This document shows positions 12,782-53,516 of a stretch of DNA of 64,000 nucleotides, in pieces. The stretch covers positions 1 through 64,000 of the forward strand of contig NZ_JRAA01000001.1 of NCBI RefSeq assembly GCF_000787395.1, written 5' to 3'. A model generated the notes under the pieces. That model saw only the letters and a program-made list of their open reading frames with translations, was not told the origin of the DNA and did not search any database. This stretch comes from Solemya velum gill symbiont. Its GTDB lineage: Bacteria > Pseudomonadota > Gammaproteobacteria > Chromatiales > Chromatiaceae. Positions within the stretch are counted from its first letter, which is position 1, and each line of letters opens with the position of its first letter. Made by a program: the position numbers and the translations under genes.

Positions 12782-12810
12782 AACAGGGGTGCAATAACTG
12801 CACCCCTGTT
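12782..12810 (-). terminator. strong Rho-independent terminator after phaC
   Basis: A perfect 12-bp stem AACAGGGGTGCA/TGCACCCCTGTT with a 5-nt loop is followed on the minus strand by a run of T. It closes the phaE-phaC operon ahead of aceK. Confidence 0.9.
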
Positions 12811-50536: not shown

Positions 50537-51109
50537 TTATCCAATAGGTGCTGGTTTGAAAGGCATGACGACCCGGGAAGGTAATGCATCGCCGCTGGCT
50601 TGCCATTGCACATAAATACGACGCATGGCGCAGTTATTGGCCAGGCCTGTATCTGTTGTGTCATAAATGCACTGGACACTGAGCGTTCCACCGGGCAGAT
50701 GGTTAATGCCATTGGCACAGCGTAACTGCCACATGTCAAAAATTGCCATCTGCGCAGGTGTACAGTCTGCGACGTTCGCTGACACGGTAGTGGTCGAGAT
50801 GCTGCAATAGGCGGTTGGTGGTACAACACAGTTGGACTCGGTTGTAGTTACATAGCTGCCACCAATGGTTGTATCGTTGCCGTCATTGTCTTCAAGGGCA
50901 GGGAGATTGGAATACATTCTTTCAGACAACTCCATCGCGATATCTGTAGCAATTGCCCTGTAGTAGGCGCTATTGGAGTTGTTTTCTGCACGAATAATCA
51001 TGCTGGAAGCGCCAAGAACGGCGAATGAGAGCAGTAGTACTGCAATCAGTACTTCGATCAGTCCGACTCCGGATTGATGTGATCTGTTCTCCTGGCTATT
51101 CATCTTCAT
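50537..51109 (-). CDS. pilV: type IV pilus minor pilin PilV
   Basis: 190 aa from the ATG at 51109, or 188 from the ATG at 51103; both overlap the 3' end of fimT. The prepilin motif is QSG before VGLIEVLIAVLLLSFAVLGASSMIIRA, with Glu at +5. Several Cys (NCVVPPTAYC, ADCTPA, LRCANG, VQCIYD, NNCAM) suggest disulfides in the exported domain. Fits the PilV family by position and sequence. Confidence 0.85.
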   Translation of the reverse strand: MKMNSQENRSHQSGVGLIEVLIAVLLLSFAVLGASSMIIRAENNSNSAYYRAIATDIAMELSERMYSNLPALEDNDGNDTTIGGSYVTTTESNCVVPPTAYCSISTTTVSANVADCTPAQMAIFDMWQLRCANGINHLPGGTLSVQCIYDTTDTGLANNCAMRRIYVQWQASGDALPSRVVMPFKPAPIG

Positions 51110-51662
51110 ACGCTGCAAGCGCTTCAATTCTGGGCCTGCCTGAACTTGAAAGAACCAGCTGCTGTTTATACTCTTTTTCTGTCTTGCCGGACGAGGCTGT
51201 GAAGGTTCCCAGCTGCCTCGCGCCACTGGTTGATTTTGTTCTGCCCGTGGCAACATAGGAGACGTAGTTTTGTAGCAGACTGTTTCCACTGATGGAAATA
51301 CCTCCCGTGATACGCGTGTTGGCAATTAACTCTTCGCCATTGTCTATTTGGGCATTGGCGTTGCTGCTGTCGGTTGCATTGTCTGTAAAGACAATCCACC
51401 CCTGGCCCCAATCTCCGCTCGCTGTACATGTGGTTTTACCGTCATCTGTCGTTGTCGACTTGCACATGGTCACCCTGCTGTTGCGCTTGATCGCTTCACT
51501 GCGTGCAATCATCAGGTCGTGGTAGAGATTTTCAAGTGATGAGGTGATGCGATTCCGCTCGATCATTTTTGCGAAATTGGGAACAGCAAATGTTGCCAAT
51601 ATCACGAGCAGAACAAGCGCGATCAAGAGCTCAATTAGCGTGAAGCCAAGCATCTTTCTCAT
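51096..51662 (-). CDS. fimT: GspH/FimT-type minor pilin
   Basis: 188 aa from the ATG at 51662 (MRKMLG before FTLIELLIALVLLVILATFAVPNFAKMI). Glu +5 is present. The body ARSEAIKRNSRVTMCKS and WGQGWIVFTD is diagnostic for GspH/FimT, with Cys residues in MCKS and TTCTAS. First gene of the minor pilin operon. It corresponds to fimU/fimT in Pseudomonas. Confidence 0.9.
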   Translation of the reverse strand: MRKMLGFTLIELLIALVLLVILATFAVPNFAKMIERNRITSSLENLYHDLMIARSEAIKRNSRVTMCKSTTTDDGKTTCTASGDWGQGWIVFTDNATDSSNANAQIDNGEELIANTRITGGISISGNSLLQNYVSYVATGRTKSTSGARQLGTFTASSGKTEKEYKQQLVLSSSGRPRIEALAAYEDE

Positions 51663-51870
51663 GACGTCGTCGGGACTCCTTTTCCAAACTTGTCGTATCA
51701 TTCAGAGGCAAGTATATGTGGGAAATTATGAAAATGCTAACATTACAATAGGACTGTAAAGTATTGATAATACTAAAGAGTTAGGTGTTATTTATGGTCT
51801 GTTGATGAGCAGGAATGGGAAGTCAGAATCCGTTGTCTGATAATTATTTCTTATTTTCCGAATAAAAATG

Positions 51871-51986
51871 TTGCACAGCAGCAAATTTCTGCTATTATTC
51901 ATTTCAGAAGCTAATTCAACGTTTCTACTCCAACCACTCAGCAGAGTATTGGCGGCTAACACCTGGTGTCAGCCGCCGTTTTTTTT
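51871..51986 (+). ncRNA. candidate small RNA with sigma-70 promoter and terminator
   Basis: TTGCAC (51871-51876), a 16-bp spacer and TATTAT (51893-51898) form a good promoter; transcription would start near 51905. About 80 nt later a strong hairpin (GGCGGCT 51951-51957 pairing with AGCCGCC 51971-51977, plus an inner stem) is followed by eight T (51979-51986). The T-run is on the plus strand, whereas the neighbouring fimT and fumarase genes are both on the minus strand, so this terminator does not serve either of them well. No ORF is visible between. The remaining part of the 333-bp gap (51663-51870) shows nothing recognisable. Confidence 0.55.
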
Positions 51987-51995
51987 GCCCTGAAT

Positions 51996-53516
51996 TTATT
52001 CAGCGATTGGCAGCTTGCCAATCTTGATACGCCACTCTTTTGGTCCGCTTTCGTGGACTGATTCACCATGGCTGTCGACTGCGACGGTGACAGGCATATC
52101 CTTGACCTCGAATTCACGAATTGCTTCCATGCCGAGATCTTCAAATGCGACCATGCGGGATGCCTTGATTGCCTTCGCCACAAGGTATGCAGCTCCACCG
52201 ACAGCCATCAGGTAGGTGGCACCATGTTTTTTGATTGCCTCTCGCGCTGCAGGTCCACGTTCGGCTTTACCCACCATGCCGACAAGGCCTGTTTTACCGA
52301 GCATCATGTCGGTGTATTTATCCATGCGCGTCGAGGTGGTTGGTCCTGCGGGACCGACGACTTCATCACCAACCGGATCAACCGGGCCGACATAGTAGAT
52401 AAAGCGGTTTTCGAAATCGACTCCATCAGGGAGTGGTTCCCCTTTGTCGAGCAGTTCCTGGATGCGCTTGTGTGCAGCATCGCGGCCGGTCAGCAGGTTA
52501 CCGGAGAGCAGCAGGCGGTCACCCGGTTTCCAGTTGGCAATCTCTTCACGTGTGACCGTATCGATATTGACCGGAATGGATGCATCGTCTGCTTCGTAAG
52601 TAATATCAGGCCATACATCCATTGAAGGTGGTGTGAGTACGGCAGGGCCGCTTCCATCAAGGGTAAATTCCACATGACGTGTCGCCGCACAGTTTGGGAT
52701 CAGTGCAACCGGCAGAGAGGCGGCATGGGTAGGGAAGTCGTTGATCTTGACATCCAGCACTGTTGTCAGGCCACCGAGACCCTGTGCGCCGATGCCGAGC
52801 GCATTCACCTTTTCGAACAGTTCAAGGCGCAGTTCTTCCTTGCGATTGGTAGGTCCGCGTGCCTGCAACTCGTGAATATCGATATGCTCCATGAGCGACT
52901 CTTTGGCCAGAATCATCGCTTTTTCAGCTGTACCGCCAACACCAATACCGAGCATGCCAGGTGGACACCAGCCGGCACCCAGGGTCGGGACAATATCCAG
53001 AACCCAGTCGACCAGCGAACTGCTCGGGTTGAGAACAGTGAAGCGTGCCTTGTTTTCAGAGCCACCACCCTTGGCGGCGAGTTTGATTTCAACCTTGTCG
53101 CCTGCAACGAGCTCGGTATGGACCACGGCAGGCGTATTGTCGCCGGTATTCTTGCGCGCGCCGAGCGGGTCGGCAACCATGGAAGCGCGCAGCACGTTAT
53201 CCGGGTGGGAATAGGCTTTGCTGACAGCGGTATTGACCATCTCATCGACTGTCTGGTCTGTCTCCCAGCTGACATCCATTCCGATCTTGAGAAACACCAC
53301 GACTCCACCAGTGTCCTGGCAGATTGGCCGGTGTCCCTCGGCGCACATACGCGAGTTAACGAGAATCTGTGTCATGGCATCTTTTGCGGCCGGGGACTCC
53401 TCGCGTTCCCATGCCTCCGTCAGCGAACGGATGTAATCTTCAGGGTGGTAGTAGGAGATGAACTGCAGGGCATCTGCAATGCTCTCGATAAAATCGTGCT
53501 TATTGATGGTTGTCAT
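51996..53516 (-). CDS. fumA: fumarate hydratase class I (Fe-S)
   Basis: 506 aa. Interconverts fumarate and malate with a [4Fe-4S] cluster. The N-terminal alpha domain has RPICQDTGGVVVFLKIGM, GWCPPGMLGIGVGGTAEKAM and IPNCAATRHVEF, with the Cys ligands expected of class I enzymes. The C-terminal beta domain has GDRLLLSGNLLTGRDAAHKR and VVGPAGPTTSTRMDKYTDMML. Length matches one-chain class I fumarases. The promoter carries the shared operator box, tying it to sdh and PHA genes. Confidence 0.95.
   Translation of the reverse strand: MTTINKHDFIESIADALQFISYYHPEDYIRSLTEAWEREESPAAKDAMTQILVNSRMCAEGHRPICQDTGGVVVFLKIGMDVSWETDQTVDEMVNTAVSKAYSHPDNVLRASMVADPLGARKNTGDNTPAVVHTELVAGDKVEIKLAAKGGGSENKARFTVLNPSSSLVDWVLDIVPTLGAGWCPPGMLGIGVGGTAEKAMILAKESLMEHIDIHELQARGPTNRKEELRLELFEKVNALGIGAQGLGGLTTVLDVKINDFPTHAASLPVALIPNCAATRHVEFTLDGSGPAVLTPPSMDVWPDITYEADDASIPVNIDTVTREEIANWKPGDRLLLSGNLLTGRDAAHKRIQELLDKGEPLPDGVDFENRFIYYVGPVDPVGDEVVGPAGPTTSTRMDKYTDMMLGKTGLVGMVGKAERGPAAREAIKKHGATYLMAVGGAAYLVAKAIKASRMVAFEDLGMEAIREFEVKDMPVTVAVDSHGESVHESGPKEWRIKIGKLPIAE

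Follow-up and report, generated by a model that had tools for sequence, protein, structure and literature searches.

The intergenic region between the start of fimT (51662, - strand) and the fumarase stop codon (51996-51998, - strand) harbours an orphan + strand unit at 51905-51986, which we examined within the window, the whole 64-kb stretch of DNA that was analysed. fimT is the first gene of a minor-pilin operon that ends with pilY1, with Pfam matches to PilW and PilX_N farther along, and the fumarase gene is transcribed toward the unit. An earlier note on this DNA, which proposed a small RNA here, had placed both neighbours on the - strand, and the positions of the open reading frames together with the Pfam matches bear this out. 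Reading along the + strand, the gap contains AT-rich DNA, the element TGCTATTAT, an RNA body starting at about 51905, and GGCGGCTAACACCTGGTGTCAGCCGCC followed by G and eight T (Table 1).

Table 1. Coordinates and supporting observations for the features of the fimT-fumA intergenic region and its flanks.
Feature	Position	Strand	Observations
fimT, GspH-type minor pilin	51096..51662	-	Pfam GspH and N_methyl; likely start 51662
Candidate divergent promoter of the fimT minor-pilin operon, TTAGCA-18-TATACT	51711..51740	-	From promoter scan; both hexamers kept in congener
AT-rich conserved stretch, UP-element-like, upstream of the promoter	51836..51871	+	32/36 identical to congener
Extended -10 element TGCTATTAT, TATTAT at 51894-51899	51891..51899	+	Within a 25-nt run (51876-51900) identical in congener
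Predicted small RNA, about 82 nt, U-run at 3' end	51905..51986	+	Fold z-scores; single copy in genome; no ORF
Predicted sRNA body: 5' stem-loop AGAAGC/GUUUCU, single-stranded ACUCCAACC, weak stem ACUC/GAGU	51905..51951	+	47/47 identical in congener
Intrinsic terminator GGCGGCTAACACCTGGTGTCAGCCGCC + G + T8 (T8 at 51979-51986)	51951..51986	+	13-nt arms, 92% complementary: 12-bp stem with one mismatch
Class I fumarase (fumA)	51996..53516	-	Pfam Fumerase and Fumerase_C; mRNA directed toward the sRNA gene

The predicted 82-nt RNA folds at -25.3 kcal/mol, lower than 200 of 200 dinucleotide shuffles (z -3.98), with the terminator giving most of this energy; the corresponding RNA of the congener reaches a z-score of -5.04. 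Within the body, ACUCCAACC (about 51927-51935) is the longest segment predicted to remain unpaired. No open reading frame with a credible start codon and ribosome site opens in any frame of 51905-51986, in agreement with the earlier description of a non-coding product. That description also held for the strong + strand terminator with its eight T, which ranks fourth among the hairpins of the window that directly precede a run of at least six T, at a place where no + strand gene ends. The three stronger hairpins lie at 12783 (-), 24250 (-) and 61027 (+). A consensus scan of the window returned five terminators where 3.4 are expected, a count that is not above chance when taken alone; the feature stands above chance because it is conserved in the congener.

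This conservation was assessed between two genomes of one genus, our genome and its congener (G001), over a 1.8-kb alignment. All 47 nucleotides of the body are identical. They belong to the longest stretch of identity in the alignment, 61 nt at 51902-51962, which exceeds any run in fumA, a gene that is itself 88.8% identical between the two genomes. By comparison, intergenic DNA at 51691-51835 is identical at 101 of 145 positions (69.7%). The identical block opens at the predicted transcription start and closes inside the terminator, where the upper stem and loop have changed in the congener, yet an 11-bp perfect stem and T7 are present. As judged from two genomes, the body thus appears to be under purifying selection as RNA. 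Moreover, a fixed start, a fixed body, a terminator change that preserves structure and a T-run on the + strand are together the pattern to be expected of a + strand RNA gene and not of a fumarase 3' end.

The promoter is better described as one of the extended -10 type than as the TTGCAC-16-TATTAT pair put forward in the earlier note. TATTAT survives this revision, as part of the conserved extended -10 element: counting both strands, the window contains only three copies of the pattern TGNTATWAT, and the one here lies directly before the RNA body. The proposed -35 hexamer TTGCAC (51872-51877) does not survive, as it matches TTGACA at only three of six positions and the pair is absent from the list returned by a promoter scan of the window. 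The extended -10 reading is preferred because TTGCAC is replaced by ATGCGC in the congener. The spacer also contains an imperfect palindrome, GCAGCAAATTTCTGC (51879-51893), identical in the congener, which could be a repressor operator.

We consider it highly probable that this locus is a stand-alone sRNA gene of about 82 nt, whose product is most likely a trans-acting base-pairing regulator and probably depends on Hfq. This agrees with the + strand sRNA candidate of the earlier note, and is supported by the block conserved from start to terminator, the kept stem, the T-run on the + strand and an hfq gene in each of the two genomes (E about 1e-30). It is from gene anatomy, predicted structure, two-species conservation and these hfq genes that we infer expression, Hfq binding and a pairing mechanism. 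In our model, RNA polymerase would start near 51905 from the extended -10 promoter and stop in the T8 run of the intrinsic terminator, yielding an RNA of about 82 nt. The unstructured ACUCCAACC, as the likely seed, would then pair in trans with the ribosome-binding regions of mRNAs (its CUCC is complementary to the Shine-Dalgarno sequence GGAG), and Hfq probably holds the U-rich 3' tail. From what is established for Hfq sRNAs, a tail of U7-U8 combined with a seed open to pairing suggests that translation is repressed by pairing at ribosome sites. By its sequence anatomy, the locus has the features expected of an Hfq sRNA gene: it is an intergenic unit that lacks an open reading frame, its U-run is at least about seven long (T8 here, T7 in the congener), and Hfq is encoded.

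The RNA might mainly control the divergent fimT gene, and hence the minor-pilin operon, through a duplex that spans the Shine-Dalgarno sequence and start codon of fimT, although we regard this as unlikely. Among the 49 gene starts of the window, fimT has the best plain duplex energy (-27.5 kcal/mol; -31.0 in the congener), with ACUCC of the sRNA opposite GGAGU of the fimT ribosome site in a leader that is conserved (31-nt identical run, 51659-51689). The signal fades when self-folding is allowed: 6.4% of all 90-nt stretches of the window then bind the sRNA as well as the fimT leader does or better, and in this genome 29 of 400 shuffled leaders, and 100 of 400 shuffled sRNA bodies paired with the fimT leader, do as well, although the congener leader outdoes 399 of its 400 shuffles. 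Moreover, GGAG sites pair with any RNA that contains CUCC. Because pairing weakens once intramolecular folding competes, fimT is a candidate and not a target. A search of both genomes for perfect complements of the seed found no conserved mRNA site; the one orthologous match present in both resembles a -10 element, precedes a YhbY-like gene and was rejected as an mRNA site.

Control of fimT would have a precedent in sX13 of Xanthomonas, which lowers type IV pilus mRNAs, fimT and pilW among them (PMC3771888), and is for this reason the nearest functional parallel. sX13 is a 115-nt RNA encoded after polA; its three apical loops are C-rich and in two cases contain CCCC, and it acts without Hfq (PMC3771888). 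Both are intergenic sRNAs with C-containing unpaired sequence. Our RNA differs in being 82 nt long, in carrying CUCC in a linker and no CCCC, and in its locus and fold, and we do not assign it to sX13. The more specific proposal, that it represents a new sRNA family, born within the genus and tied to the assembly of type IV pili, paired divergently with the minor-pilin operon and repressing fimT via its ribosome-binding site, seems improbable to us.

An explanation that needs no regulatory RNA is that the hairpin stabilises or terminates the 3' end of the fumarase mRNA and that the + strand promoter is accidental. The hairpin does start about 20 nt past the stop codon of the fumarase gene, and fumA is followed on the - strand by no other T-run hairpin. 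Read in that direction, however, it is followed by AATACTC with no U-run, and A8 precedes it, so that the earlier judgement that the terminator is badly oriented for fumarase stands; the promoter-like site within the hairpin on the - strand is not intact in the congener. The best-conserved part would, on the fumarase reading, be the distal 3' region of fumA, 47 nt that lie beyond the hairpin, and the fumA genes of relatives lack such an element. Conservation of the hairpin only as the fumA 3' end, which the earlier note named as evidence against an sRNA, is thus contradicted, and we hold a fumarase role to be very unlikely. Least likely is a short transcription unit without trans function, insulating fimT from fumarase or giving read-through antisense to fumA: its transcript does run toward the fumA 3' end from a promoter divergent to that of fimT, yet such a role requires a promoter and a terminator alone, and the body between them is fully conserved.

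The sRNA element is present in a single copy in its genome, and blastn against 55 relatives matched the congener alone. With a covariance model built from the two sequences, only this genus was recovered at E < 0.01 from 194 genomes of the family and 210 of the order, two samples that overlap and that, as in all of the large searches, were run with stricter filters that lose weak matches, such that a strongly diverged relative is still possible. Among 369 genomes of the class, the model found one further place, comprising the terminator hairpin without the body. The covariance search among relatives that the earlier note envisaged therefore gave no body-level homologue beyond the genus in the family, order or class samples. 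We did not accept as homologues a hairpin adjoining an apparent gene for a Crp/Fnr-type regulator (G003 L109), where the hairpin alone is present, or the further place in the class sample (G348 L175), a bidirectional GCGGCTAACAC hairpin that matches on both strands and lacks the body. Likewise, two further genomes of the family contain the 14-mer TACTCCAACCACTC in coding-like sequence, at a frequency not above that of a reversed control. No counterpart was found in the fumA 3' flanks and fimT upstream regions of relatives, and the element had no match in phages and plasmids.

At gathering thresholds, no Rfam family matched in the window. A permissive Rfam search gave, as its best sub-threshold match, the Neisseria sRNA IR_84 (RF02861) at 21.7 bits, against a gathering threshold of 51, with E 0.081 and on the strand opposite the hairpin, which we attribute to chance. 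So far, then, the sRNA appears to be genus-restricted. Unchanged in the sister species and not found in the other genomes searched, it has the look of a common type of RNA regulator, new to this lineage. It resembles the Hfq-dependent trans-encoded sRNAs of Gammaproteobacteria (80-100 nt) in being an intergenic orphan unit with its own promoter, an unstructured seed region, a long U-run terminator and hfq in the genome; it differs in having no sequence or structural match to any described family. The architecture itself is familiar, that of one more normal trans-encoded type, and the interest of the locus is that a well-bounded, conserved sRNA gene, with promoter, body and terminator, matches no described RNA family, and that it is a clean case of a single-genus regulator adjoining a pilus operon that it may control.

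Further observations concern the DNA around fimT. The fimT leader, including its ribosome site, is better conserved than the opening part of the coding region (84%). An inverted repeat around AGTATTGATAATACT (51753-51781) lies between the two divergent promoters, those of fimT and the sRNA, in a well-conserved stretch (51758-51789); it includes a TTGAT half-site that resembles an FNR box, and is possibly the operator of a regulator. In the congener, the 5' part of fimT joins the middle of pilY1 directly, with a 7-bp overlap (contig C4, L002 1803-1809), and pilV, pilW and pilX are missing, which points either to a deletion or to an assembly error at a short repeat.
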